Shown here one piece after another: positions 1,691 through 62,878 of a stretch of DNA of 64,000 bases; the stretch's first letter is position 1, and every line of letters starts with the position of its first letter. The notes beneath the pieces are model-generated. The model ran no database searches, was not told where the DNA came from, and saw nothing but the letters and a program-made list of their open reading frames with translations. The translations under genes were made by a program, and so were the position numbers. The stretch is from NCBI GenBank assembly GCA_026545225.1, contig CM048852.1:55435146-55499145 (forward strand). The letters are read 5' to 3'. The DNA is from Cornus controversa. Taxonomy: Eukaryota > Streptophyta > Magnoliopsida > Cornales > Cornaceae.

Positions 1691-2204
1691 GGATTGGTAC
1701 TACTCTGGGTTGGAGAGGTGGATCTAAGTCATAGAACCAAAGTTGAGTTATTTTATGTGGCAATGCTGCTAATAGCTTTGGGTATAGCAGGAATAGATGC
1801 CTCTTTGAAAGCATTTCTAGCAGATCAGTTAAGAAAGCAGGAACCTGCAGACTCAAATATAGATGAGGAACGAGTGGAGGCTCGCAGAAAAGTTTGGTGG
1901 CGCTTCGCATGGTTCTCAGGAGCTGCAATATCTGCATTTACACTTAAAGATGAAAATTGGGGATATAAATTCATGATATCAGCCATTGCTACAGGGGTCG
2001 CATATCTATTGCTGTTGTCAGGCACCACCTTCTACTACCGCAAAAAACCAACAGGCAGCTTCCTTACCATTGTTTATCGAGTATTCAAGGCCGCTATTCT
2101 TAAGCAGCATCTTGACTACCCAATTAGGCCTGAGCAATTTTTCAACAATGATGGCAAACAATTACGCTTGTTGCCTCACATTCCATTCTTCAGGTGCATA
2201 TATA

Positions 2205-2235
<31 letters not shown>

Positions 2236-3315
2236 AGATATAGATATAGATACCTCTGATCATTTAAACACTTGTCTTAGAAGCTAGGGCTTGGTTGGTG
2301 CATATATTGCAGGTGGCTGGACAAAGCTGCAATTGTAGAGACATCTTCGATCAGTCAATTAGAAGAAGAAGAAAAGAAAGGAAAGATTTGTAGAGTTGCA
2401 CAAGTGAGTAAAGTAAAAGTTCTACTAACAATGGGGCCAATGTGGACAACCTTCCTTGTATACAGTCTTGTGGAGGCAACAGGGAGCACTTTCTTTATTG
2501 AACAAACTACTAGCTTGAATGATAAAATTAGTATTGGCAATAAAGCATTCACTGTACCAATTGTCACATTCTTAGCAATCAAGTCCTTTTCAAGCTTCAC
2601 AATCTCTTATATGTATGACTTACTTGTTCCAAAGCTGTGGGGTGGAGCAAATCTACAGCGTACTAGGCTTGTGAGAATTGGTAGTGGGATGGTTTGTTCA
2701 ATATTATGTTGCATTAGTGCTTGGCAAGTTGAGGTCCACAGGTTGCATTTAGTTGCGATAGAGGGCCTCGCAGACGACGACAACTCAGAAAAGACCATTT
2801 CCATGAGCATATTTTGGTTAGCTCCTCAGTTCTGCCTATTGGGGCTTATGGAAGGCCTTGCTGAAGAAGGGCTTGAAGAATTCTTCAACCATCATGTTGA
2901 TGAATCGACGAGGAGCTATGGGCCACCATGCATAATGGGCATTGGAAAATTCCTAAGCATACCTTTTGTGCTTGCTTTTAGAGGCTGGTTTAAGGACACT
3001 ATAAATAATAGTCATTTGGATAGGTATTACGAAATGTTAGCAGTGCTAAGTGTTGGGAACCTCTACTTTTACTGGTATGTCTCAAGAATGTATGCGTTTT
3101 ATAAGGAAACTACAGTAGAGGAGGTGGAGCTTGATCCATTCCTGGAAGAATGTTTTACAAGCTTAGCAACAAAAGTAGTTGTCCCTGTTGAGACCAGCTC
3201 TCACCATAGATATCGATCCTTGAGCTGGACTACTGGAATTCTATCATCCTGCAATCCATGCTCTCGTTACAAAGTTGCAAAGGTGCTCCCTATTCGCTCC
3301 AATACGTTTAGCTGA
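1691..3315 (+). CDS. NPF: NRT1/PTR family (NPF) transporter, 3' exons only
   Basis: Two exons, 1691-2193 and 2313-3315, join in frame (AG|G arginine codon across a GT-AG intron) and encode about 501 residues ending at TGA 3313-3315. The reading frame is open through the acceptor TTTTGTAG at 1690, so the start lies upstream: the first roughly 100 residues of a usual 570-600-residue NPF, including TM1 and its ExxER motif, are missing from the window. Recognisable NPF/PTR2 (MFS) features are the block ALGIAGIDASLKAFLADQL early on, the cytosolic loop after TM6 ending in LPHIPFFRWLDKAAI, and the C-terminal helices with WLAPQFCLLGLMEGLAEEGLEEFF. Family members are proton-coupled importers of nitrate, peptides, hormones or other solutes at plasma or vacuolar membranes; the substrate cannot be told here. 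The usual GTGGIKP-type motif reads GIAGIDA and FGADQF reads FLADQL, so it is a diverged member. Subfamily 5 is my best guess. No frameshift or stop was seen. Confidence 0.87.
2199..2252. repeat. (TA)n(GATATA)n microsatellite in the NPF intron
   Basis: About ten TA units pass into GATATA units inside the 119-bp intron 2194-2312, six bases after the donor. It makes up nearly half of that intron. Confidence 0.95.
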
Positions 3316-23619: not shown

Positions 23620-26600
23620 ATGTTGCCTCAAAAGCAAGCAGAGGAAGCTATTGTCTCCAACTTCAACGAGACAGAGCATGAAGGGAAGGAAGAAGAGAAG
23701 CAAGAAGATCATTCTGTTTTCAGTGTCAAGAACGTCCTCTGGCATGGTGGTTCAGCCTGGGACGCTTGGTTCAGTTGTGCTTCTAATCAAGTATGTATAT
23801 ATATATATATATATATAAACAACCACAAAAATACCCATTTCAAATTCTAAAAATCAAGCCATTCAGTAATTATCTAATTAACCATCGATTTATTGATTAT
23901 GTTCATTCATTTCAGGTAGCTCAAGTACTGTTAACACTGCCATACTCCTTCTCTCAACTGGGTATGTTATCAGGCATTTTGCTACAGATATTCTATGGTC
24001 TGATTGGTAGCTGGACAGCATATCTCATCAGTGTTCTCTATATTGAATATCGAAGCAGAAAAGAGAAAGAGAATGTTAGCTTCAAAAATCATGTCATACA
24101 GGTAATTTAATTTTCTTCTAATTAGTTACCACCATTACTGATTCATTAAAACCAAAACTAAACCCATTTTGATTGTTTTTTGAGTTGCAGTGGTTTGAAG
24201 TGCTTGATGGGTTACTGGGTCCTTACTGGAAGGCAATGGGTCTAGCCTTCAACTGTACTTTCCTTCTCTTTGGATCTGTCATACAGCTTATAGCTTGTGC
24301 CAGGTAAGGTTTATGTTGAGCTTTTCACACTTAAATTGGAAAAATATGAAATGGGTGTGTGTTTAATTAGATTGTTATGGTTGATTCTTAATGAGAACAG
24401 TAATATATACTATATCAATGACCGATTGGACAAGAGGACATGGACATATATATTTGGAGCTTGCTGTGCTACAACTGTTTTCATACCCTCCTTCCACAAC
24501 TACCGGATTTGGTCTTTTCTAGGCCTTGGGATGACCACTTACACTGCCTGGTACATGGCCATAGCAGCTTTTATTCACGGTCAGGTAAAACAAACATCAA
24601 CAATTTTTATATAAATGTGTTATATATATATATATATACATATACACACACACACACACTGTTCAATTACTTTCTTGGGTTTCTCTGGATGTAAGCCATT
24701 AGTATGAACTTTTTGTTCTGTTTTGGTGAGTGTTTGTTTTCAGTGAGTAAAGTTAATTTGTCCGGTGGTTGTGTTCTTTTGCAGCATGATAGTGTGTCAC
24801 ACTCGGCTCCGGAGAAGCTAGTTCTGTATTTCACCGGCGCCACCAATATACTATACACCTTCGGTGGTCATGCTGTCACTGTGTAAGCCTTTTCTGTGTG
24901 TATGTATATATATATACTGTACATGTAAAAATATATATATGTATGATATATGTACTGTACTGCTGTGTATGCATGTATATGCCGTATAATATCTTCTCTT
25001 CTTTCTACGCGGCTTCTCTTTGCAGCTTTTGCCGGCCACCTCGGGTTTGAGACTACTGACAGAATCATGGAAATCATTTCTGTTTGTTTGCCTGGAAAAT
25101 AGAACATTACCCCCACATTTCCCTTAAACAAAAGTAACAGTAAACTGGCTTTCTAGTTTCCTAGGACCCTTCTCTCGGTTCATCTTGATTTAGAACTTGA
25201 TCTTGTTCTCCATTATTTAATTTTTTGGCTCCACCAAAAATTATTGATTATTTGGTACTTTGATGATACCAACAATATAGGACCTAGTAAATAAACTATT
25301 TTTCTGGTGCTAACATAAATAAATAAAATAAACTATTTTTCTTGTTAATAAAAAATAATCACTCCCCTATTTGAAACACTACATTATCATACCTTGGGCA
25401 TACTTAGATAATTTCTCCACCTCCAAATCATTTTAGTGCTACCGGAATTCAATTGTCTTTACAAATTTAATCCAAGGGTATTTTGGTCATTAATATGTAC
25501 CTTCCAAGCATCCAATGCCCCTGAGTATTCAGATCATTTAAAACATCATATAATACATACTATTGTTGCAGTTTTTAAGTAACATACTCATAATTGACCA
25601 ATGTAATTGTTAGACTGATTTTTGTTAGTTTCGCCATTTTATATATACAATTGATAGTAATGTTTGGAAGCAATAACAAAATGTTACTTTTTTTTTATTT
25701 TTTTGACGCAGTTAATTTAAATCTATTTATGAATTGAATTCTGATCAATGGAAGCTCGTGGAAAATGTTACAGGGAAATTATGCATGCTATGTGGAAACC
25801 CCAAAAGTTCAAGTACATATACTTAATAGCCACACTCTATGTCTTCACACTAACACTTCCGTCAGCTTCAGCCGTCTACTGGGCATTCGGTGATGAGCTC
25901 CTCAACCACTCCAACGCCTTCGCCCTCCTTCCAAAAACTCGTTGGCGTGACGCCGCAGTTATTTTAATGCTAATTCATCAGGTTGGTAAATGTATTTTAA
26001 GTTCAATAAATTAAAAAATAAAGCAGCGAGAAGTGACATCCAAATAATTTTTTGCCTCACTTACCCAAGGAAGAAAAAAAAATTGTTACATCCATATTAC
26101 AAGTAGCTTATTTTAATTTTTTTTGTGGGTTGTTTATGATAGTTGAAGTACATAAATGTCCTTGTTGGAATGACATTTTTATTGGGGGATTGTGTGGATT
26201 TTGGTGCAGTTTATTACATTTGGATTTGCGTGTACTCCTCTGTACTTTGTGTGGGAGAAAGTTATAGGGATGCATGATACAAAGAGCATATGTTTGAGAG
26301 CACTTGCAAGGTTGCCCGTGGTTATACCAATATGGTTTTTGGCCATTATCTTCCCATTCTTTGGGCCCATTAATTCGGCAGTTGGGGCTCTCTTGGTTAG
26401 CTTCACCGTCTACATCATTCCAGCTCTTGCCCATATGCTCACTTACAGAAAGGCCTCTGCCCGCCAGGTCTCTCTCTCTCACTCTCTTCTCTCTATTCAT
26501 ACATAATAAGCACATATACATACATATATGTCTATCTATATATATATATCTATCTTTCCAGCATTATAGCATTATCCTGGTCCATCCATTGAGACACATT

Positions 26601-28831: not shown

Positions 28832-30470
28832 CATACCACCATTAGTAACCATAACATAATCATTTGATTGATACCTTTTGGATGGTTGATGCGGCCGATT
28901 TGATCTCCTTCTTGGTGGCAAATTTGGCTCTTCAAGCTCATTTGTGTCTTCAACACCACCCTTATCAGAAGATGATGAAGAAGGTGGTGATGATGGAGGT
29001 GATGGAGATGGCGGGCTAGCATCTTCACTTGGTTCTTCCAGTTCTTCGTCAAGCAAAATTGGACTTTACTTTTCATTTTCATTCCACTTCCAATATTCTT
29101 CTTCATTGAATTTCACATCCCGACTAACAATGATTTTGTTAGTTAGAGGAGGATTGAATAACTTGTATATATGCTTTGGATTTCTCACTATATATATATA
29201 TATATATATATATCCAACAAAAATGCATGCCACAGCTTCTGCCCAAAATTTGTTAGGCATTCGTTTGGCTTTCAACATATATACTTCTAGCCAACTCTAT
29301 AATTATTCTGTTTTCCCCTCAGCAACCCCATTTTGCTGTGGGGTGGACAGTAAAATGATGCCTGATACCATTTTAATTCTTTCAAGAAAAAAATCAAATT
29401 CATCACACGTATACTCACCTCCTTGGTCAGAATGCAAAGTTTTTAATATGTATCCACTTTGCTTTTCAACTAAGGCCTCGAACATTTTGAAATGTCCAAA
29501 CACTTGTGATTTATGCTTGAGAAAATACACCCATGTATTTCTACTATAATCATCAATTAAAGTGAGAAAATAACGATTACCTCCAATTACACAAAGATCA
29601 TCCTCAAAATGAACGCCATGCCCTTTTCGAAGAAGCTGGCCAACACTTAAGAGATTGTAATTCAAATCTGGAACATAGAGCACATTGGAGATCCGCTTTC
29701 GTTCTCATTTCTTTGAAAGAAAGAGAATTTCACCACATCCTCTGGACAAAAGTTTTTATCATCACCGATTTTGACTTGAGACAGAATCATTTTATCAAGA
29801 TTGATAAATGCTTCTTTGTTTCCAGTCATGTGGCCTGGCTGCTGTAACCACTATCAAGATACCACATGTTACCTTGAGAATTTTCATTCACACGTTCACT
29901 CTAGATCTCGATCATTTGGTTGACAAGAGAGATTACCCGATTGAAATAATCTTCAACCGATTCGGACTCCTTCATTTGCAGCATGTCAAATTCTCCTAGA
30001 AGAGTTGCAATCTTGCAGTTTTCACTTTATCTTCTCCTTTGTATGAAGCCTGAAGTGTGTCCCAATCTTGTTTTGCCGACAAAGCTGATGAAATTCTCTC
30101 AAAAATAAATTCATCTACTGCTTGGTAGATGAAAAACAATTCCTTCTTGTCTTTTCTTACCATTTTCTTTCAACTCATTGAGTTGTTGTGGAGTGAGAGT
30201 TGTATGATCTGCTAGTTCTGTATAACCAGTTTCAACAATATCCCATAAATCTTGGGATCCATACAACACTTTCATTTGGATGGATGCTCCATTGAGATCC
30301 ATATATACAACACTTTCATTTTAATGCAGGATGCTCCATTGAGATCCATACAATACTTTCATTTGGATGCTCCATTGAGTATATTTCTTTGCATTGAATC
30401 TTGGAAGTTGGGGATGCATGCAACATGTTGTTGGTAGCCATTAATCTTGAAACAGGCTCTGATACTACTT
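28832..30470 (-). mobile_element. Decayed Ty1/copia retrotransposon body (gag-PR-INT)
   Basis: Reading on the minus strand: a PBS matching tRNA-Met (30469-30455, TAGTATCAGAGCC), gag start MATNNMLHAS at 30441, gag blocks LWDIVETGYTELADH and DTLQASYKGEDKVKTAKI (frame-shifted), a protease remnant WYLDSG near 29860, the pre-integrase motif LYVPDLNYNLLSVGQLL (29680-29630), integrase TLIDDYSRNTWVYFLK and LHSDQGGEYTCDEF with TPQQNGVAEGK, then MLKAKRMPNKFWAEAVAC. The frame jumps from there to FVGY and KIIVSRDVKFNEEEYW, losing about 75 residues, with a (TA)n expansion at the join (29190-29213). Sequence ends in the linker before reverse transcriptase; RT and RNase H are absent. Many frameshifts and stops make it dead. 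Confidence 0.88.
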
Positions 30471-32165: not shown

Positions 32166-32387
32166 AACAAAGGAGCAGACTGTGACGTTATGGCCCCAAT
32201 TTTGTTTTGACTTGGCTCGCAACACCAATAAGTTGATGTGAAGGGCTGAATGAGGGATGAGAGAATGAAGCTGGATAGAAAGACCTTTGATTGGATCATT
32301 GGATTTGAAACCCACGATCAACTTCTTTTTCTTTCCATCTAACAAATTTAATTTCACAAGTAAAAGAAAATTAAATAAAAATAAAGA

Positions 32388-32634
32388 ACAATGCTACAAT
32401 TCATGAAATTATTTTTTGATATTGTATCATGAATGATATGACAGATAATAATTCTATATTTGTAGGAATTCCACTAACAATAAATTTCTATTTTTTATTA
32501 TTTTAGGAAATAAAATTAAATGGTGAATTAGTATTGATGAGATTTCTCCCGTGCACGGAATTTCAATGGTATTATTACATACCACATCATTCATGATATA
32601 AAATCATAAAATAATTTCATAAAGTGTAGCATTT
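32388..32634. mobile_element. MITE family 2, copy a (diverged, enlarged)
   Basis: Ends CAATGCTACAATTCATGAAA and TTTCATAAAGTGTAGCATT are inverted, with the inner CATGAATGAT/ATCATTCATG arms seen in other copies. The middle contains an extra AT-rich stretch. It also has the shared core GTGCACGGAATTTCAATGGT. Confidence 0.7.
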
Positions 32635-33133
32635 TTTAAAAATAAAAGGTTTACGAGACCATTTAGCCATCTTTGACTTCTTTTAAAGTTTTATACATGT
32701 GTCAAACATTTATCGGTTCGAATCTCATATTAGAAGCAACTTCTTTCTTATATGGTGTGTGAGAAGTATTTTCCAAATTGAGGGCAATGCCACCGTTTCT
32801 ATATTTCTAATGCCACTATAACAAATTTGCCAGTTTTTCTGTGGCCATTCTAGCAAAACAATTCTCTAATAGGGCTCTTCTGTGTGACTTTCATCGCCAG
32901 CTTTAGCTCGAATTCAAACACATGGCCGACTCAAAATTTTTGAAAACTTAAATCTGCAGCTTAATGGCCGGAGAACAAAGAAAGAAAGAAAGAAAAGTGT
33001 TCTTACATCAAGACAAAATATCTACAAGAAGTTTCTTGTTAAAATAGAAGGTTTCAAAGAGTACGTATTGATAATAAAAATCATTCAAAGAATGGACAAC
33101 ACAATTTATTCGGAAATGATATGAATTTTAAAA

Positions 33134-34257: not shown

Positions 34258-34375
34258 CTAGATGGTCTGCAGGAAGGTGAGGACGAAAAGAATTGCAGCC
34301 AAGAGAGAGATTCCTGTCCATGAGATACGAAACTTCAAAGGAATTGAAAAGTTTCTGTCACAACTGTGATATGTG
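34258..34375 (-). pseudogene. DUF247 C-terminal helix fragment
   Basis: The minus strand reads SWTGISLLAAILFVLTFLQTI followed by a stop, matching the copy A tail (SPWTGLSVIAAFILFILTLLQTM). Only the last 35-40 codons are recognisable. Part of its upstream sequence recurs near 31836-31880. It is too short to be a gene. Confidence 0.75.
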
Positions 34376-35874: not shown

Positions 35875-36480
35875 CATCATCCCCCTATGTCCATAAAATA
35901 TAAGAATTTGGATGTAAAAGTTGCTCATTAAGCAAGTAGAGGTACGTTGCATTTAAAGAAATTCAACGAGTTTTGAATAAAATCACAATTACATAGTAAG
36001 GGTTGATATGGTCGGGAATCAAACAATAATGGTAATAAGAGTCATTCAAATGTTCTATAATAAAGACCTTGTATTGGAATGACAAAGTTGGTTCTTTTGT
36101 AAATGACAAATCATAAATACGTCACCTATAATTTTTTTTTTTTATCTAGACTACTCATGAGACAGATTAATAGGAACCCAAACCTAGTTAATAATAAGAA
36201 AGCATGGTGCAAGTGTAAATGGTCTGCAACAAGGTGAGGACAAAAAGGATAAAGACAGTAATGACTGATAAGCCTGTCCGTGGACTACCAAAATAATCAT
36301 CTGAGTTTTGTTAAACATTTTCGCCACCTGCTTGCACAGCTTAGTGAAGTAGAAAACACCTACCGAAACATTCTTGCATTGCAGAAATATGCCGCCTCTT
36401 CATTGGAACTCAAATAATTACGAATCACTCCGACTTTTACAGGCAGATCAACATCCTCTGTAGAGTTGATGAGTTTATCA
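35875..36480. repeat. Segmental duplication of the copy A 3' half and flank
   Basis: This block parallels 49945-50545: shared runs include GGTAATAAGAGTCA, CTTGTATTGGAATGAC and ATGACAAATCATAAA in the same order, then the DUF247 3' coding part. A second collinear block, 34395-34535, parallels 49716-49845. In the intact locus the two blocks are about 100 bp apart; here they are separated by about 1.3 kb of extra sequence. Confidence 0.8.
36189..36480 (-). pseudogene. DUF247 3' fragment related to copy A
   Basis: The minus strand encodes DKLINSTEDVDLPVKVGVIRNYLSS-type sequence, then a frame-broken version of the copy A tail (KCLTKLR, stops, remnants of the last helix). A deletion of about 26 bp and several stops are present. 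The similarity to copy A continues beyond the stop codon into its 3' flank, so this is a piece of a genomic duplication and not a processed copy. No DUF247 sequence was seen on the 5' side above 36480. Confidence 0.85.
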
Positions 36481-36713
36481 CGAGAAAAGAACGAAATTTG
36501 AAAAAACAAAAAGTAATTTACTCGGGAAAGTTGAAAATTGTGGCCAGCCGATCACCATGGTGCTAGTTGAGTTTCTTTCTTTTAATTATTTTATTATATA
36601 AAATATTATTTGCTTAAATAGTGAAAGAAATATGATAATTAAAAAATAAAAAGCAAGTGAAAAAGCATCAAGAAGAGGGACAAGAGAAAAATGAATGGCT
36701 GTGTGATTTGCTA

Positions 36714-39691: not shown

Positions 39692-42600
39692 CGGCCAAAT
39701 CATAGAGACATTTGTTTGACATCCTTTCCGTCTACTATAGACTTTGGCCCTATAGATTCTGACACACTTTTTGATGGACTCCTTCTCAGCCTTACTCATT
39801 CACTCAAATGACTCTTAAGATGGTTGCCAAGTGGCGCCATATTTGGGTGCCAACACTCGTGTGTCACACTTTATTTTTTGGCAAGACTCTGTCCCACTTT
39901 CATTCTTCCATGTTCCAAGTAATCAATATATAGTCAAACAATATGCTCCTTATCTTGCCAAACGACTGTGAGAGTTGGAGTTGATCAATATTTGAGGTTA
40001 AAACAAGTATAGAACGAAAAAGTTGAAAAAATAGAAGTGGTATTAATTAAGTTGGGGTGAAGCTAGATCTACCCATTTGATCAAATATAGGATGTAAATG
40101 TCAGTTATTGTGGAAATGATATTCCACAGCTGTTTGGGCTACTTGGAGAGAAGGGAATATGAGAGAATGCAGCAAGGCTGTCATCAGGATGCTTTACAGT
40201 TGCTAGATCCATTATGTTTTGAGAGTTATGGATAATGGGCTGCTTGCTATTTAAAAGGTTAATGATCCCTGTACTCAATTATAGACTTGTTTTCTTTTTA
40301 TCCTTAGATTTGCTAGCTTCCATGTCTATTGGAAGTCGTCCTTTTTCAATATATCTTTGGCTTCAAGTTGAAGTAATAGGGAGGGTATACGTATACCCTC
40401 TTTTTTTCAACAAAACAAAATGTAGTCCTAATTCCTATTGACTCGTGTCCTTCACATTGGAAGTGCCATACATGCATGCTTTTTCATTATTTTCGCTGCA
40501 CCATTTGTTAAAACCATGTTGTAATGCTTCAACAGCACAAAAACACATGAAAACATGTGCTTCACATTGTGTCCGAGCGAATCAATTATATTCTTTGCCT
40601 CAATCAGTGTACACTAAAAAGAAATTCCAACACACACCTTGCCTCAATTTGTGTAAAGTAAAAGGAATATCGAATGTACTTTGCCTCAATCAGTGCACAC
40701 TAAAAAGATAACCAACACATACATACCTTGCTTCAATTAGTGTAAAGTAAAAAGAAATATCATAATGTACTTTGCTTCAATCCGTGTACGCTAGAAAGAA
40801 AATCAAAATATACCTTGCCTCAATCACTGAATAATAATAAAGCCTTGAATATGCTTACACTTTGCACATTAACATTTTCTGCACAATAAGTGCTGATACC
40901 AATTTATTTGTAACTGTAATCTAGCTACGTTAATTAGATGAACTATACGAGTTTTGATTGCTAAGTGTTTTATTTTTTTTGGTAACTGAGTGCAAGTGTT
41001 TTTCATTCTAAATCTATCTTAGGATACGAGGTAGACTGATTGAGGCAAATTACATTCTAGTTTTTCTTTTACTTTGGTCTGGGCCGGGCGAACCATACCC
41101 AATGTCTGAGCGTGGGTTCGAATCCCTCCACTAGACAAGTTCGAGATTAATCTACATGTTTGAGGAAAAAGTGCGTGAGATATACCGAGTGAAGATTGTA
41201 TTTTAAAGGATTAACCACTGAGAATAATCTTCCTTGAAGTTAATCATTTCTCTCATGATACAAGAGATTGAATTTGAATAGACAAATTTGCACAATAATT
41301 AAATATTTCATATGTTATATAACAATGTAATGCAAAATGTTATTATTTTTTAATGATATTTAATTCAAATAAAATGAGATGTTGCGAGAAAATGGACTTT
41401 TATCAAGGGTGGAACCCTTCAAATTTTAGCTTTTCTTCTCCTTTTGTCATCACATTCAGAAGATCAAAGATGTTTGGCTTGGGTTATGCATGTGACAGAT
41501 ATTTATGAATAGCAAAGTTATGTTTTATTAAACAACTTAAATTAAGATATATAACTAAACTCTTTGAATATTAAGGATTAATGCGAAGAAAAATAAAATA
41601 CTAAAGTAGAAGGTTAATGACTCAAGTTTCCTAGAGGTAAAGTGTGTGTGAGTTTCTAGCATGGAAAAAAAATCTCATTGATATGACATAACAATTCGTC
41701 CTTCGGTTGGCAATTAAAATGTATTTTATTTCTTTTTTTCCAAAAAGTAGTTGACTAATTAACTTCAACTATTAAATCCAAGTGTTTGTCACTTTCCTAA
41801 AGAAAAAATGAGAGTTCAATTCTTAAAGAAATAATAATATGATGCATGTGTCAACGGCAGAGCTGTAAAACGTAGCTAGCCAAGGAGCAATGCTCTCACA
41901 TTTCTCTTGCTCTCACAGGTGGCAACCAGTTTAGGTATTATTTACAGAGTTTTAAACCTTAAATAATGAGTACTTCTTTAACAAGAAATTTTCTAAATTA
42001 ACAAAATAAAAGTCTAAAATAATAGAATTAGAAAATTTTGAAAAATTACAAATACTTGTACTTTTGGAGGGCAAATTAAAAATACATGTAATCAAAGTAA
42101 ACGATTTTCAAAATATTGTATTTGACCCAAAAGTTAAAGTGGACATGGAAAAACATTGTTCACTTTTTCAAATAATCCTTTTTATTTTGACAATTTGAAC
42201 TAAATTTTAATCACCGGTAGTCAAACTGAATTGCACAAAAATGTCATTTGTATAACAGAAATAAAAAATAATTTGACCTGGACTCAAAGAAAACATATCA
42301 CCTTGATATCTTACTAAAACATTACATATCTATTTTGAAAATATGAAAAGGAAAAGAAATGGCATGAAAATGCTCAAAGGGAGAAAAAAAGACAAGAAGT
42401 ATGTGAGGCAAAAACTTGTTATATAATTATTGATTTATTATGTTCCATAATTCTTCTGGACACACAAACTCAAACAAAGATAACATTTACAAATTTAAAA
42501 AAAAAATTTAGTTCAGGTATTAGTTTGTGCAATAAAATACTATATTTATACATCGGAGTATCACTTTTTGTGGATAATGTACCAGTTTTTGTGCACACTT

Positions 42601-42897
42601 TTGATTACCCGTGATCAAAATTTAGTTCATTTTTTTTTATTATCGGTTGTCAAAAGAAAAAAAGGACAATTTGGGAAAAGGAAACATTGTTTTTTCATGT
42701 ACACCTTAACTTTTAGATCAAATAAATGATTTAAAAAATCGTTAACTTTAATTTTTAATCACATGTATTTGTAATTTTTCCAAATTCCTCACGGTGGTTT
42801 TCCATATTTATTAATTAACAGGGAGTAGCTCCATCGGCTTTTGGTCTATCTTAAAATTTTAAACAGGAAAGGTAAACTAATATAATATAAAAGAAGT
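39692..42897. other. Gene-free interval with dispersed-repeat text
   Basis: It holds the 40.6-kb tandem repeat and a TGGGTTCGAATCCCTCCACTA stretch near 41112 that resembles a Pol III B box but lacks a cloverleaf. The rest is AT-rich without recognisable coding sequence. Confidence 0.5.
40594..40832. repeat. Tandem repeat of ~88 bp, about 2.7 units, with half-unit structure
   Basis: Units begin at 40594, 40680 and 40771 with TTTGCYTCAATC.GTG. Each holds two diverged halves, CTTGCCTCAAT..GTGTAAAGTAAAA and TTTGCCTCAATCAGTGTACACT. It is not coding. Confidence 0.85.
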
Positions 42898-42906
42898 TAA
42901 ATTAAG

Positions 42907-43087
42907 GAGCAATGCTACATGTCATGAAAATATTTCATGAATTTTTATCTTGAATGATGTGGCAATTAAATGGTGAGTTAGTATTGGTGGGATTCCTCCC
43001 ATACACGGAATGTCAATGATATTATCACTTGCCACATCATTCATGAAGATAATTCATGATAAAATTTCATGACATTTAGCATTTCCC
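42907..43087. mobile_element. MITE family 2, copy b
   Basis: Complete: GAGCAATGCTACATGTCATG...CATGACATTTAGCATTTCCC. It has TAAATTAAG immediately left (42898-42906), which reappears as the reverse complement left of copy d. About 14 bp separates it from the half copy c. Confidence 0.88.
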
Positions 43088-43101
43088 TAACAGCTCCAGA
43101 A

Positions 43102-43208
43102 GAGCAATGCTACATGTCATGAAAATATTTCATGAATTTTTATCTTGAACGATGTGACAATTAAATGATGAGTTAGTATTGGTGGGATTTTTTCATACAC
43201 GGAATGTC
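43102..43208. mobile_element. MITE family 2, copy c (half element)
   Basis: It starts GAGCAATGCTACATGTCATG, the same orientation as copy b, and stops in the core at GGAATGTC. There it is fused to the DUF247 pseudogene at the gene-strand sequence TTTCTATT. The other half is missing. Confidence 0.88.
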
Positions 43209-44026
43209 AATAGAAAGATGTTGCGGAACAGCATTTTTGCAAATACCGTTGAAGATTCGCAACACGGAATCACTGGGGAATCACTGGTACCCAATTGGTT
43301 AGATATGACTTGTGCTTTTTCAAGCAATTTAACGTCCTCCACCGAGTCCATGAGGATATCCATAAGGAAAGCGTGTGACGTGAAACAACTCTCTAAGAAA
43401 GGACAACACTGCTCAAAAGCGATGACGTTTCTCAAGAATGAGTCGGTGAAATTACCGACCGAGAAACGTGGGATTTCAAGACAAACTCTCCAAAAATAAG
43501 CATAACTATCACAACGCTTAAAATCCACTTCAAACATATATGTTGGATTTATTTAGTTTCCGCAACTTGACTCCTTCGTATCCCGCGGGTGGTTGCTGCT
43601 GTATTACAGCATCAGCACGGCGTCGACAGTCTGCAAGAGGTTGGTAGCAAATGTGTAACAGATGGAGTAGATGATAAGGATCGGAGTAGGAGCCCCTTCC
43701 TTTCTTGTTATGTCAGTAATATCTTCTTCTAACCCCATTATATATATATATCACCAAAGAATGGAGGGAGACATCCAATATTTGTTTTCTCTGTGAACAG
43801 GCCCTATAGATACCACGTAGCTAGCTCTTTCATTTTCTTCACGAACCATATTTGGGACACTTCTTATCACAGGGTACCTTGGCCACCATTCCCCGTAACT
43901 TCTCCGGAACTGATCATTTTTTTTCTTGTCTTCAATCTTCTTATCTAGACAAATCCTAAGCTCATCCGCCATTTTCTTCTCAGATATCATGGAAGAACTA
44001 GAACCTACTTCGCTCTCCAACCGCAT
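43209..44026 (-). pseudogene. DUF247 pseudogene, inverted 5' and middle part
   Basis: On the minus strand, 44026-43751 encodes a DUF247 N terminus (start MRLESEVGS; then PRYPVIRSVPNMVREENERA and VSIGPVHREN). It then jumps to FFGDI..MGL near 43750, losing about 170 residues relative to copy B. Frameshifted remnants run through 43540-43740, and 43537-43209 encodes FSVGNFTDSFLRNVIAFEQ, FTSHAFLMDILMDSVEDVKLLEKA and, after a frame change, RIFNGICKNAVPQH. It stops at 43209 against a half MITE. The remaining C terminus is on the opposite strand at 44469-44662. The large deletion, frameshifts and split make it non-functional. Its residues are closer to copy B than to copy A. A (CT)n tract (GA-rich on the gene strand) precedes the ATG. 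Confidence 0.9.
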
Positions 44027-44286
44027 CTCTCTCTCTCTCTCTCTCTCTCTCGTTTTGTGTTTGTGTAACTGTAGAAATTCACTGTGAGAACATATATGTT
44101 CATATATATAATCGAGTTACTGTTCTGTATACAAGTAGTGGCGTATTATCAACAAATTATCTATATATATCAATACTGAGAACCTGGCTAGCTAATAAAG
44201 TGTACGTGACACCTTTAAGAACTAATACGCAAACAAGGCATGTCATTTTCGACTCTTATTACACTGTTTATTGCTAACTTAATTTA

Positions 44287-44467
44287 GGGAAATGTTAAAT
44301 GTCATGAAATTTTATGATGAATTATCTTCATGAATGATGTGACAAGTGATAATACCATTGACATTCCGTGTATAGGGGGAATTCCATCAATACTAACTCA
44401 CCATTTAATTGTCACATCATTCAAGATAAAAATTCATGAAATATTTTCATTACATGTAGCATTGCTC
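44287..44467. mobile_element. MITE family 2, copy d
   Basis: Complete, inverted relative to copies b and c: GGGAAATGTTAAATGTCATG...ACATGTAGCATTGCTC. Left flank CTTAATTTA (44278-44286) does not match right flank TTTCTATTA (44468-44476). Each instead matches a flank of the b/c pair, the signature of exchange between two elements. Confidence 0.9.
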
Positions 44468-44468
44468 T

Positions 44469-44662
44469 TTCTATTACGATCAACTCTGGAAGGAGATGAA
44501 GGATTCCCGCAAACCTTGGCGACAAGAAATGGGAATTGTCAAACGTAATTGTGCTGGTAATCTATGGATAGTCTTATCAATCATTGGTGCATTTGTCCTT
44601 TTTGTCCTCACACTTTTGCAGACCACATACACCATGATTTCCGTACATCATCCTAAACCTTA
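44469..44662 (+). pseudogene. DUF247 pseudogene, C-terminal part on plus strand
   Basis: One open frame on the plus strand reads YYDQLWKEMK, then IVKRNCAGNLWIVLSIIG and the membrane segment AFVLFVLTLLQTTYTMISVH, ending PKP-TAA at 44662. This is the DUF247 C terminus; compare IETVKRNCAGNLWIRLTIF in copy B. It begins directly at the right end of a complete MITE (44287-44467) with TTTCTATTA, and the missing upstream part lies inverted at 43209-44026. Before the inversion the gene would have been on the plus strand. Confidence 0.92.
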
Positions 44663-46075
44663 ATTAATCATCATCATCATCCTCATCCTCATCCTCCATC
44701 TATTCTGTCCTCAAAACTGCTTCATTTGTTATCCCCTAGTTCTGTGTTTTCTATTCCTATATATTCCTTTGCTTCTCATGTTTTCTTATCATCATTATCA
44801 TCATCTTAATTATCATGGTTTCTGCTGGAGTGTGCAATAAATTAATTTGGATGCCCGATTGATGCCTTAATGATATCTACTGTGTAGCCTCATATCGATC
44901 GGTCTACCTAGATCAGCATCAGTAATCTGTCTGCATCGAGTGGAGTGGAGTGGAGTGGAGTGGAGTCTTTAATTACACCATATTATACTACTACCTACTA
45001 ATTGGATCACTACTTGTGTTATCTACTGTCGACATCTTTATGCATGATTTCTCCTTTGCATTACATTGGCCTAGCTTTTTTATCTGTGTATCTCTATATA
45101 TTGTGTGATTTGTCACCCTGCATTAAGACCTTTAATTGTATTATCTGTATCTCTATTGTCTTAGTGTGATTCTCATTAATTATGATTAGTCTTTGATTAT
45201 CCACTACTCATCTTTATCCATACTTTCTACATCATCTTTTATTCCTTCTTGAGACCGCAAAAGCTAAGTGGTCATTCGGTAACATTTCTGTTTATGTGTT
45301 TACTATTTACTACTCCGTATTTGTGTTTACGGGCTTTTTGTTTATTTTATAATTCTCTGAAAACAAAATCTGCTTTTGGTATGTATATTTGTTTCTTGAA
45401 TTTTGTAAATAGTAAACAAAATAAAATATGTTTGGTAATGACATGTGTTTAAAGTTGAAGTACTTCAAAGTTTTTATGAAATATCAATATTAATTATACG
45501 GATTGACTTAATTCTGTTACTCATCCATTCAGATCCGATTTCATAAACTGTCAACTTTATTAAAGTTCAGATTTCATAAACAGAGAACCAATCCGTATCA
45601 AATATTTATAATATATATACATGTGGTTTAGGCAAAAACATAAAATAGTGGTCTTATTTGGAAGTGTTACAGCACCAAATGAGTCAATAATCAGTAATTC
45701 TTGTTGGATTTGGGAACTAGACATGTACATACAGTGATGCTATTAATCTCTGGAAAAATTTTGACCACGTTTGTTTTTTGGTGTGTAGTAGGTGAACTAA
45801 ATGAGATCACTTCCTAATAAATGAACATATTTATAAATATAGTCTTGTTTACGTTCATAAACAAGTTAAAACGATCTTGAACATGAGTTCAAATTGAGCT
45901 CGAACAAATTTTGTATTTAACAAGCTGAGTCCGAACATTTCAAAATAACGATGAGCTGTGTCCGAACTTAACTTTTCCAACTTGTCACGAGCCCAAGCCG
46001 AGTTCACAAACAAACAAGTTCGAACCAGAATAGACTCAAATCCGGCTAAGCTCAACTCGGTTCATTTACTACCCT
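44663..46075. other. Gene-free interval; probable dispersed repeat at its end
   Basis: 45840-46075 contains GAGCTCGAACAAATTTTG, CAAGTTCGAACC and CTAAGCTCAACTCGGTTCA, typical of abundant non-autonomous plant repeats. Otherwise AT-rich; no gene. Confidence 0.5.
44938..44966. repeat. (GGAGT) pentanucleotide microsatellite
   Basis: GAGTG is repeated over five times without interruption, downstream of the broken DUF247 gene. Confidence 0.95.
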
Positions 46076-50240: not shown

Positions 50241-51626
50241 TTAATGATAAGAAAGCATGGTGTACATGGTCTGCAACAAGGTGAGGATAAAAAGGATAAA
50301 GGCAGCAATGACTGATAAGCCTGTCCATGGACTACCAAAATAATCACGTCTTAGTTTTGTTAGACATTTTGGCCAGAATTGCTCACAATAATCACTCACC
50401 TGCTTGCATGGCTTAGTGAAATAGAAATCACCTACATAAACATTCTTGCAAATATTGTTGTAGAGATGTGCCACCTCTTCACTAGAACCCAAATAATTCC
50501 CAATCACTCCGGCTTTTACCAGCAGATCAACATCCTCTGCGGAGTTGATGAGTTTATCCATGAGGAAAGCATGAGATGTGAAATAACGAAAAGTAATCAC
50601 ACGAGAAAATTGCTCGAAAGCAATGAGATTTCTCAAGAATGGCTCGGTGGAGTAAGTAATGCGGAAAGGTGGGATTTCAAAACAATCTCTTCTACACAGC
50701 CTGAAACAAGAACGATGTTCAGTAGTACTAAACTTCACGTCGAGTAGATTCACCTTGTTACCTGCCTGCAACTTGACTCCTGCCAAGTCAAGTTGGGTTG
50801 CGGAATATTTGAATCCGGGCTCTTCTGTGACCTCCAATGAAATACCTGCCTCATAAGGCAGGTAGCAATCGTGTAAAAGATGGAGTATATGAAAGGTAAA
50901 TGTGCTGCTCTTATTTTCTATACTAGCTTTTCCTAAGCCCATCATGTCTCCAAAGAATGAAAGGACACACTGGGTCAGGGAAATTTGCTCGCTATTTTCA
51001 GGAATCCAATGCACTGTTAGGCTGAACAATCTTTGAAGAACAGGAAAGGGGATTTGGTTCTCGAGTCGTAGCAAGTCATGTTGCACTGCAGACATCATGG
51101 AATGGTTGTCCAAAATGGGGTCTCCAATAAAGCCACTGACACTCCTTTTGAAATTCCTGTACATAAGTTCAATGATGAAGCAAGCATCAATGAGCATCAT
51201 TTCTGCAAACTCGATCTTTCTTGCATAAGAATTGTCATTTCCCAATTCCACACATGACCCTGAATAAGATGACCTAGCAAAGCATTCCATCTCTAACATA
51301 GCGGTGACACAATCATCTCGTGTGCGCTCAAAGTTGGGTGTTCGATGAAATAGGAAATGCATGTAGCTCAATTTGTCTGCCTCCATTGCTTGAAGATTTT
51401 CCTTTCCTCTGTGGAGAGGTCCAATGGATACGAGGGTAGGGGTATAGGCGCCTTCATTGAGCTCACGAGTCTCATCAGGAACCCTGAAAATAAGTGAGGC
51501 CCAGGTATGCCAGTAGTTCTTCAGGGCCTCAATCTTGTGTGTGTTGACAACTATCTTTAACTCTAGGGACTTCAATAATTCAGACTTTGCATCTTCAATT
51601 GGGGCACCAGTTTCTTCATTAGCCAT
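50241..51626 (-). CDS. DUF247 (UPF0481) protein, intact copy A
   Basis: An uninterrupted single-exon frame of 461 residues, usual for the family (about 420-550), ends in TAA. The start is the ATG at 51626 (MANEETGAP); two codons upstream the frame reads TTG-ATA, which is not a likely start. Typical DUF247 blocks follow in order: a short N-terminal region, GAYTPTLVSIGPLHRG (about 59-74), LIDACFIIELMYRN (about 145-158), DLLRLENQIPF (about 184-194), LTQCVLSFFGDMMGL (about 217-231), FHILHLLHDCYLP, ATQLDLAGVKL (about 276-286), PFLRNLIAFEQ, YFTSHAFLMDKLI, and a C-terminal hydrophobic segment (about 434-457) that should anchor the protein in a membrane with a very short tail. No biochemical activity is established for the family. 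The 3' half and 3' flank are duplicated as a pseudogene near 36 kb. Confidence 0.9.
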   Translation of the reverse strand: MANEETGAPIEDAKSELLKSLELKIVVNTHKIEALKNYWHTWASLIFRVPDETRELNEGAYTPTLVSIGPLHRGKENLQAMEADKLSYMHFLFHRTPNFERTRDDCVTAMLEMECFARSSYSGSCVELGNDNSYARKIEFAEMMLIDACFIIELMYRNFKRSVSGFIGDPILDNHSMMSAVQHDLLRLENQIPFPVLQRLFSLTVHWIPENSEQISLTQCVLSFFGDMMGLGKASIENKSSTFTFHILHLLHDCYLPYEAGISLEVTEEPGFKYSATQLDLAGVKLQAGNKVNLLDVKFSTTEHRSCFRLCRRDCFEIPPFRITYSTEPFLRNLIAFEQFSRVITFRYFTSHAFLMDKLINSAEDVDLLVKAGVIGNYLGSSEEVAHLYNNICKNVYVGDFYFTKPCKQVSDYCEQFWPKCLTKLRRDYFGSPWTGLSVIAAFILFILTLLQTMYTMLSYH

Positions 51627-60290: not shown

Positions 60291-61748
60291 CTAGGCTTTA
60301 CGAGGTCGATGATAAGAAATCATAGCGTAGAGGGTCTGCAAAAACGTAAGGACAAAAAGCACAGTAGCAGCGAATATTGTTAACCTTATCCATAGATTAC
60401 CTGCACAGTTACGTTTCACTGTTTCAATTTCTGCTCGCTGTGGGGTGCAGAAAAGCTCCATGGTATTAAATAGCTTATTGTAATAAAAATGATGTGGAAC
60501 AGCATTCTTGGAAATACTGTTGAAGATTTGCACAACCAATTCAGTTGAACTCAAATGGTTATGTATGATTCCTGCTTCTTCAAGCAATTTAACGTCCTCC
60601 ACAGAATCTATGAGGATATCCATCAGGAAAGCGTGGGACGTGAAATAACTCCCAATCCAAGGGCAATAATGCTCGAAAGCCATGAGGTTTCTCAGGAATG
60701 ACTCAGTGATATTAGAAACGGTGAAACGCGGGATTTCAAGCCTACCACTTCTCCAATCCATAACAAAAGGAGTCCTAAATGTCAAATAGAACAGGTTCCC
60801 TATTTCACGTTTCCTGAGCTTCACTCCTGCAATCTCGAGTTGTGTTGCTGTGGGTTTGTAGCTGCAGGGATGCTCTTGGTCACGTGGAATAAATCCTCCT
60901 AATTCTTCCTCATATCGTTCAGCAGGTTTGTAGCAATTGTGTAGGAGATGGAGTATATGAAGAGGAGGTTCGCGACCTTTTTTTGAGATGTCACCATCTT
61001 TTAAGCCCATTATATCACCAAAGAAGGAAAGGACACATTGAGTAAGGGTGAGCTCGAGGGTGGATCGACGACGTTGGCTTCTATTTGCTGCTGCTGGGGT
61101 AGGCAAAGGACGTTCCACATGATGATGATGATTATGAAAACGTTCCACCGTAAGCGTAAACAATTCTTCAAGAGCAGAGAAGGGAATCTGGTTCTCGAGT
61201 AACAGCAAGTCGCGTCGGATGGCAGACAACTTCAAAGAATCCCCCAAGATGGGGTCATCTGCCACTTCCCCTGTGGAATGCCTATATAGAAGTTCGATAA
61301 TGAAACAACTATCAATAGCCACTGCAGGAACGACATCTTCATCCGGCCCCACTTCTGGGTAGCATCTCTTCAAAGTGTTTTCCATCCTACGCAGAGCTGC
61401 CGTACATTCTTCTTTTGTTTGCTCGGAATTTCCTGTTCGTTCAAATAGTTTAGACATATATGTGAGTTTTTCCTTCTCCATTTCTGTCAGCTTATTTGAC
61501 TTCTCTCTGTGAAGAGGCCCGATTGATACGTCACTAGGAGTATAAGCTCTTTCATTTTCTTCACGAAGGACACCGGGGACACTTTTTATGACTGGGTTCC
61601 GTGGCCAGGCATACCCGACCACTCTCAATGAGTTGCTCCTTTCTATCCAATCACTGAGAGTATGGGATCGGTATCCACCAATGATTGAGAGAGACTCCTG
61701 CATCAATTCCCACATTATTTCGGTAGTAGCACTAACTAAGATTTCCAT
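60291..61748 (-). CDS. DUF247 (UPF0481) protein, intact copy B
   Basis: A single-exon frame of 485 residues runs from ATG 61748 to a stop ending at 60291. DUF247 blocks are all present: NPVIKSVPGVLREENERAYT (about 51-70), DVSIGPLHREK (about 73-83), AIDSCFIIELLYRH (about 144-157), DLLLLENQIPFSALEELF (about 180-197), LTLTQCVLSFFGDIMGL (about 233-249), LHILHLLHNCYKPAE, ATQLEIAGVKLRK (about 301-313), RLEIPRFTVSNITESFLRNLMAFEHYCP, YFTSHAFLMDILIDSVEDVKLLEEAG, and a C-terminal membrane segment (about 451-476). A His-run and basic/Ser insert (HNHHHH... NRSQRRRS, about 205-229) is not in copy A. Function is unknown for the family. The promoter side (above 61748) carries (TA)n/(ACC)n microsatellites, a tandem repeat and two MITEs. 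It is the closest intact relative of the broken copy at 43-44.7 kb. Confidence 0.92.
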   Translation of the reverse strand: MEILVSATTEIMWELMQESLSIIGGYRSHTLSDWIERSNSLRVVGYAWPRNPVIKSVPGVLREENERAYTPSDVSIGPLHREKSNKLTEMEKEKLTYMSKLFERTGNSEQTKEECTAALRRMENTLKRCYPEVGPDEDVVPAVAIDSCFIIELLYRHSTGEVADDPILGDSLKLSAIRRDLLLLENQIPFSALEELFTLTVERFHNHHHHVERPLPTPAAANRSQRRRSTLELTLTQCVLSFFGDIMGLKDGDISKKGREPPLHILHLLHNCYKPAERYEEELGGFIPRDQEHPCSYKPTATQLEIAGVKLRKREIGNLFYLTFRTPFVMDWRSGRLEIPRFTVSNITESFLRNLMAFEHYCPWIGSYFTSHAFLMDILIDSVEDVKLLEEAGIIHNHLSSTELVVQIFNSISKNAVPHHFYYNKLFNTMELFCTPQRAEIETVKRNCAGNLWIRLTIFAATVLFVLTFLQTLYAMISYHRPRKA

Positions 61749-62401: not shown

Positions 62402-62614
62402 GAGAAATGCTAAACGTCATGAAATTATTTCATGAATTTGTGTCATGAATGATGTGGCAGGTAACGTGCAGGATTAATATTGGTGTGATTTAGTAATAAT
62501 ATTATGGGATTATATGTATGAGGGGAATCCCACCAATACTAACTCTCCACGTTACCTGCCACGTCATTCATGATACAAATTCATGAAATAATTTCATGAC
62601 GTGTAGCATTGCTC
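62402..62614. mobile_element. MITE family 2, copy e, with perfect 9-bp TSD
   Basis: Ends GAGAAATGCTAAACGTCATG and CATGACGTGTAGCATTGCTC are flanked by AAAAATATT on both sides (62393-62401, 62615-62623). A 9-bp duplication is characteristic of Mutator-like (MULE) elements and assigns the family. The arms pair over about 65 bp. Confidence 0.9.
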
Positions 62615-62698: not shown

Positions 62699-62878
62699 GG
62701 GAAATGCTAAACGTCATGAAATTTATCATGAATTGTCTTCGTGAATGATGTGGCAAGTGATAATATCATTGATATTTCATGTATGGGGGAAATCCCACCA
62801 ATACTAACTCACCATTTAATTGTCACATCATTCAAGATAAAAATTCATGAAATATTTTCATCACATGTAACATTGCTC
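62699..62878. mobile_element. MITE family 2, copy f, with perfect 9-bp TSD
   Basis: GGGAAATGCTAAACGTCATG...ACATGTAACATTGCTC is flanked by ATCCGTAAA at 62690-62698 and 62879-62887. It is 180 bp, the standard length of the family, and closely matches copies b and d internally. Confidence 0.92.

Follow-up and report, generated by a model that had tools for sequence, protein, structure and literature searches.

The window, by which we mean the whole 64,000-nucleotide stretch of Cornus controversa DNA analysed here, has 33% G+C, contains zero N and has the look of plant nuclear DNA. It carries a local cluster of genes of DUF247, a plant family according to Pfam. Two DUF247 genes are open over their full length, 50244-51626(-) and 60294-61748(-), and both cover positions 1 to 401 of PF03140, with 343.2 and 286.1 bits, respectively. 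Two DUF247-like relics find their best match in the 50-kb gene. One of them, at 36191-36533(-), consists of two pieces matching at 47% and 78%; the match of the other, at 34261-34320(-), is weak (67% over 21 residues, E 0.013). With the split pseudogene described below, the total for the window comes to about five DUF247 genes or remnants. Elsewhere in the window, 1691-3315(+) matches a POT-family transporter, 26174-26506(+) an amino-acid transporter, and 29303-29704(-) a retroelement integrase, the last fragment being taken for copia-like. Viral contigs were also scanned with the 60-kb gene for stray plant DNA, which gave two pattern matches and no relative.

The DUF247 pseudogene lies between 43 and 45 kb. 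The sequence-only reading had described it as a gene in opposed pieces, with the 5' and middle parts on the minus strand and the C terminus on the plus strand, and tblastn with the intact 60-kb paralog (g60k), which served as the ruler, bears this out. Residues 42-82 of g60k match 43903-43787(-) with 64.3% identity, residues 246-403 match 43741-43280(-) with 39.7% identity, stops and gaps, and residues 402-421 match 43274-43215(-) with 55% identity. Residues 421-483 are found at 44469-44657(+), with 58.7% identity. The pseudogene thus changes strand at residue 421, the single g60k residue at which the minus and plus pieces abut. The coordinates of all features are collected in Table 1.

Table 1. 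Features of the split DUF247 pseudogene, the MITE copies and their flanking 9-bp footprints (positions in the window).
Feature	Position	Strand	Description	Basis
T1, left copy	42898..42906	+	TAAATTAAG, outer side of b	reverse complement of 44278-44286, 9/9
MITE copy b	42907..43087	+	181 bp, complete, GAGC end left	blastn, arm pairing
Spacer between b and c	43088..43101	.	14 bp	
Half MITE copy c	43102..43211	+	GAGC end to middle	blastn
T2, remains	43208..43216	-	in-gene target, on the gene's 5' piece at the broken side of c	8/9
DUF247 pseudogene, middle part	43217..43741	-	frame changes	PF03140 73.3 bits, tblastn
DUF247 pseudogene, 5' part	43787..44026	-	apparent ATG at 44026	43787-43903 matches g60k residues 42-82
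Pseudogene upstream region	44027..44277	-	within the inverted segment	by position
T1, second copy, inverted	44278..44286	-	CTTAATTTA, left flank of d	9/9
MITE copy d	44287..44467	-	181 bp, complete, inverted relative to b	blastn
T2, copy on the gene's C-terminal side	44468..44476	+	TTTCTATTA, right flank of d	8/9
DUF247 pseudogene, C-terminal part	44469..44663	+	up to stop codon	58.7% to g60k residues 421-483
MITE copy g	32386..32637	+	control, own 9-bp TSD AAAAATAAA	
MITE copy f	62402..62614	-	control, own 9-bp TSD AAAAATATT	
MITE copy e	62699..62878	-	control, own 9-bp TSD ATCCGTAAA	
Intact DUF247 paralog g60k	60294..61748	-	used as ruler	Pfam, tblastn

The pieces are unequal in what they retain. 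The middle piece passes the Pfam cut-off for PF03140 (24.8) with 73.3 bits; the C piece (18.2 bits) and the N piece (10.2 bits) each fall below it alone, and a fourth piece has no match. Of the four tested pieces, three are nearer to g60k than to the intact 50-kb paralog, counted as identical over aligned residues: 27/38 against 22/56 for the N piece, 45/67 against 44/90 for the middle piece, and 37/63 against 26/60 for the C piece. The fourth, of 21 residues in an out-of-frame translation, gives 4/15 against 5/15 and is uninformative. The decay of the gene is considerable. Residues 83-245 of g60k, about 163 in all, have no tblastn counterpart in the pseudogene, which also contains stops and more than one frame change. 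The internal gap (43740-43787) coincides with a short (AT)n run, which is possibly the site of the deletion. A comparison of the pseudogene's upstream and downstream DNA with that of the two paralogs gave, at best, stretches of 57 bp (75%, E 0.002) and 19 bp (95%, E 0.003). The remaining flank matches have E 0.027 or worse and are largely AT-rich repeats, and none is usable.

Short MITEs are common near plant genes. One MITE family was found by blastn at six places in this window, three of them at the pseudogene. The arms of copy b, 42911-42965 and 43029-43083, pair over 55 nt with 85% complementarity and form long terminal inverted repeats. The unrearranged copies e, f and g are each flanked by a perfect 9-bp TSD (three of three), in agreement with what had been noticed for the family from the letters of the DNA. 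In Mutator-type (MULE) elements the TSD ranges from 9 to 11 bp. The combination of 9-bp TSDs with 55-nt imperfect terminal repeats is one that we take to fit a Mutator-type MITE and, as judged from sequence features, the 181-bp element is probably of that type. Compared with b, d and e, copy g is longer by about 70 bases beside one arm. Copies e and f run in the same direction, 84 bp apart; the open 60-kb DUF247 gene has them in its upstream DNA, at a distance of about 650-1130 bp.

The two complete copies at the breaks of the pseudogene, b and d, have opposite orientations and are identical at 171 of 181 positions, so that the earlier statement that inverted copies of one family lie there is confirmed. 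The longest exact stretch common to both is 38 bp. Half copy c points in the same direction as b and begins 14 bp after it; its last three bases, AAT (43209-43211), are common to the centre of the MITE and to the T2 footprint. No second exact occurrence of the 14-mer at 43089-43102 is present in the window, where near-matches stay at chance level, and the window offers no evident source of the spacer. A further element-like inverted repeat, at 42034-42786, ends 120 bp to the left of b and has 83-nt arms that are 80% complementary, in addition to shorter outer and inner arms.

The footprints beside these copies are arranged crosswise. No TSD of their own was recovered for b, c or d when the ends were slid by 4 bp, the best agreement being 4/9 for b, 5/9 for c and 5/9 for d. 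The flank TAAATTAAG on the outer side of b is the reverse complement of CTTAATTTA beside d at all nine positions (T1). The flank TTTCTATTA to the right of d agrees at eight of nine positions with the reverse complement of 43208-43216, at the gene end fused to half copy c (T2), the offset at c having been picked after inspection. Both pairs had been pointed out in the sequence-only reading, and both hold. When the 12 flanks were compared pairwise, directly and as reverse complements, the 132 comparisons gave values of 8 or 9 for only the two crosswise pairs and the three own TSDs. The chance level was estimated from 200,000 draws of random 9-mers from the window, one of each pair being reverse-complemented; 9/9 occurred at 2.5e-5 and at least 8/9 at 3.75e-4. 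On both strands of the window TAAATTAAG occurs five times, two of them being T1 itself. The occurrence at 41538 has no MITE match adjoining it by blastn within the window and is taken as chance.

The locus appears to preserve, in clear form, the remains of a familiar type of accident, in which the front of a decayed gene was turned around between MITEs. That an inversion involving these MITEs happened is, in our judgement, very probable, a confidence obtained by adding up three mechanisms that would each produce it. When the flip is undone in a script and exactly one 9-bp copy is removed, tblastn with g60k returns one ordered set with a sum E-value of 2.5e-45; in the sequence as it stands, the minus pieces have 8e-28 and the plus piece has 2.7e-19. 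Against this restoration, the reading frames of the coding pieces are offset by two bases once a single TSD copy has been strictly removed. The original strand of the pseudogene would be plus, unlike that of the four other DUF247 genes and relics in the window, all of which are minus.

Some readings of the locus dispense with such an event. That b and d were inserted independently, and later, next to an inversion that already existed was considered and is rejected, since both copies would then have TSDs of their own, which they lack. The presence of a gene fragment between inverted copies of one element also recalls a Pack-MULE, in which the fragment would have been picked up between MITE ends and would have entered the locus together with them. 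The outer flanks of such a unit do not match here, whether it is bounded by b and d (TAAATTAAG against TTTCTATTA) or by c and d (GCTCCAGAA against TTTCTATTA), so an outer TSD is absent and the capture is rejected; moreover, the gene resumes with its C terminus immediately beyond, at the very residue where it broke off. We consider a Pack-MULE origin extremely improbable. A third reading places the error in the assembly. If the segment between the inverted MITEs had been laid down backwards, the true order would be a gene on the plus strand with a MITE at each site, and a wrong flip between inverted repeats yields the same crosswise pattern in the only sequence examined. Since b and d have at most 38 exact bases in common, overlaps longer than 38 bp tell them apart, and an artefact of this kind is quite unlikely.

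For the inversion itself, the sequence-only reading had proposed that one MITE sat upstream, that another had inserted in the gene and that the DNA between them flipped. The residue-exact split, the absence of own TSDs and the crosswise matches give the inversion good support; the two-insertion history is not unique, since a transposase-driven event starting from MITEs in the gene alone, described below, gives the same order and the same matched pairs, and in its simple form the two-insertion history does not account for half copy c or the 14-bp spacer. Under this history, which is the simplest one, a first MITE would have entered TAAATTAAG, some 250 bp before the apparent start codon, and a second one the coding sequence at TTTCTATTA. 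Ectopic recombination between the two would then have flipped the intervening DNA, a segment of about 1.06 kb (43217-44277) that carried the 5' and middle parts of a DUF247 gene, then on the plus strand, along with its upstream region. We give ectopic recombination between the two inverted MITEs an even chance of being the mechanism. The right junction, T1-d-T2, has zero bases lost or added, and a crossover inside the elements yields such a junction without further assumption. Against recombination, a simple two-MITE model does not predict half copy c or the 14-bp spacer. These may have been part of the in-gene insertion, or may have arisen independently at that junction, by repair or template switching, AAT being shared at the break. 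In addition, an exact stretch of 38 bp would be little for homologous recombination, if b and d were equally diverged at that time.

A close parallel is provided by the Galileo inversions of Drosophila buzzatii. In the study of these (PMC2775673), opposite orientation, exchanged TSDs and chimeric elements are used together as criteria for ectopic recombination. The first two are found here, b and d being inverted and the TSDs lying crosswise (9/9 and 8/9). As in Galileo, opposite copies of one cut-and-paste element occupy the breaks. The two cases differ in that the fly study demonstrated chimerism and sequenced chromosomes lacking the inversion (PMC2775673), whereas one assembled sequence was analysed here; and in that Galileo made natural chromosomal inversions with 7-bp TSDs, whereas the present one is a 1.06-kb inversion in a plant, with 9-bp TSDs and an extra half element at one junction. 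PMC2775673 also states that the outcome of a one-site hybrid model is strikingly like that of ectopic recombination, differing only in whether the copies are identical or chimeric, and that sampled uninverted chromosomes may simply be without the parental insertions.

A transposase, rather than recombination, may have made the inversion by hybrid-element or reversed-ends transposition. The only MITEs would then have been those in the gene at TTTCTATTA, arranged in direct tandem (half c, 14 bp, b, d) or present on the two sister chromatids. Two ends, GAGC from b and GGGA from d, would have moved jointly into an empty upstream TAAATTAAG, which would have been duplicated as a new TSD. Such an event gives exactly the observed order, T1-b-spacer-c-T2-gene 5' part-T1-d-T2-C terminus. 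Half copy c and the spacer would both belong to the original insertion, and only the truncation of c at the T2 side is left over. The 9/9 match of T1 fits this origin as well as recombination and does not discriminate between them. An active transposase and a composite or sister configuration are demanded in return, and we regard this origin as a tentative alternative, distinctly less probable than ectopic recombination.

The relationships among the copies bear on the same question and on the third criterion of PMC2775673, chimerism of b and d. Among the five full copies, neighbor joining (NJ) places b with d in 87% of 300 bootstraps, as would suit a transposase-driven origin, whereas IQ-TREE does not and groups d with e (support 48); the trees disagree and the copies are few. 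When the half common to all six copies is used, the best NJ group containing b is b with c, at 49%, which resolves little. The distances are 10 (of 181) between b and d, 11 (of 180) between b and e, and 16 between d and e, from which it follows that d changed more than b. This speaks against the transposase-driven origin, in which copies identical at the event need not have changed unequally.

Alternative transposition has precedents in plants. For reversed-ends events, PMC8225341 describes copies in direct orientation whose facing ends move to a target, so that the adjoining segment is inverted and the DNA between is lost. A gene-only ancestor with b, c and d all in one direction would have the arrangement required there. 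The inversions made by Ac/fAc at maize p1/p2 resemble the present case in having matching TSD copies at the element termini on both junctions, as T1 has here; they differ in that the elements are Ac, the TSDs measure 8 bp and the inverted fragments 80.9 to 81.8 kb (PMC8225341). As a point against such an origin, alternative events are described there as rarer than standard transposition. In Arabidopsis met1, two nearby VANDAL21 elements gave rise to inversions of the spacer, some with an extra duplication and deletion, and the authors regard alternative transposition as plausible for them (PMC12312487). These spacer inversions between two closely spaced elements, in a pseudogene-like region, are a close precedent for a transposase-driven event here. 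They are unlike it in being somatic, in arising in hypomethylated mutants from head-to-head elements about 200 bp apart, and in having TSDs that were not fully resolved. Inversions made by transposable elements are thus known in plants (e.g., PMC8225341), and exchanged TSDs have been documented in flies (PMC2775673). Among the matches listed from the open-access literature, none by its title concerns a MITE-bounded DUF247 inversion, which is no proof of absence.

A single event might also account for the half copy. Replication-based template switching, of the type named FoSTeS or MMBIR, could have made the inversion and copy c together at the inverted MITEs, c being a partial direct repeat of b that follows a 14-bp insert and ends at the common AAT. 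The divergence of c from b, 6 of 110 sites, is similar to that of b from d (10/181) and of b from e (11/180), so that c does not give the impression of having been freshly copied from b. A clean right junction at full MITE ends also argues against template switching, and we hold this mechanism to be improbable.

The earlier description of a gene broken by an inversion is well supported as regards the inversion and overstates the cause, a deletion and frameshifts being present as well. With about 163 residues missing and frameshifts, the inversion need not have killed the gene, and the in-gene MITE would already have severed the C-terminal hydrophobic stretch. The effect of the inversion on the gene was probably small, since it concerns a decayed member of a local DUF247 cluster in which two genes are open over their full length. 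Inversions mediated by transposable elements are of a known kind; the present case is new, very small and well marked. Both sets of 9-bp footprints are still readable, and the case suggests that two elements of 181 bp are able to flip part of a gene. The case offers a clean test of recombination against transposase, through an occupied or empty upstream site and through chimeric or sister elements. If the hybrid or reversed-ends origin were true, the locus would be a germline, base-readable case in which Mutator-type MITEs underwent alternative transposition. GGAGT units follow one another at 44940-44966, downstream of the C-terminal piece.
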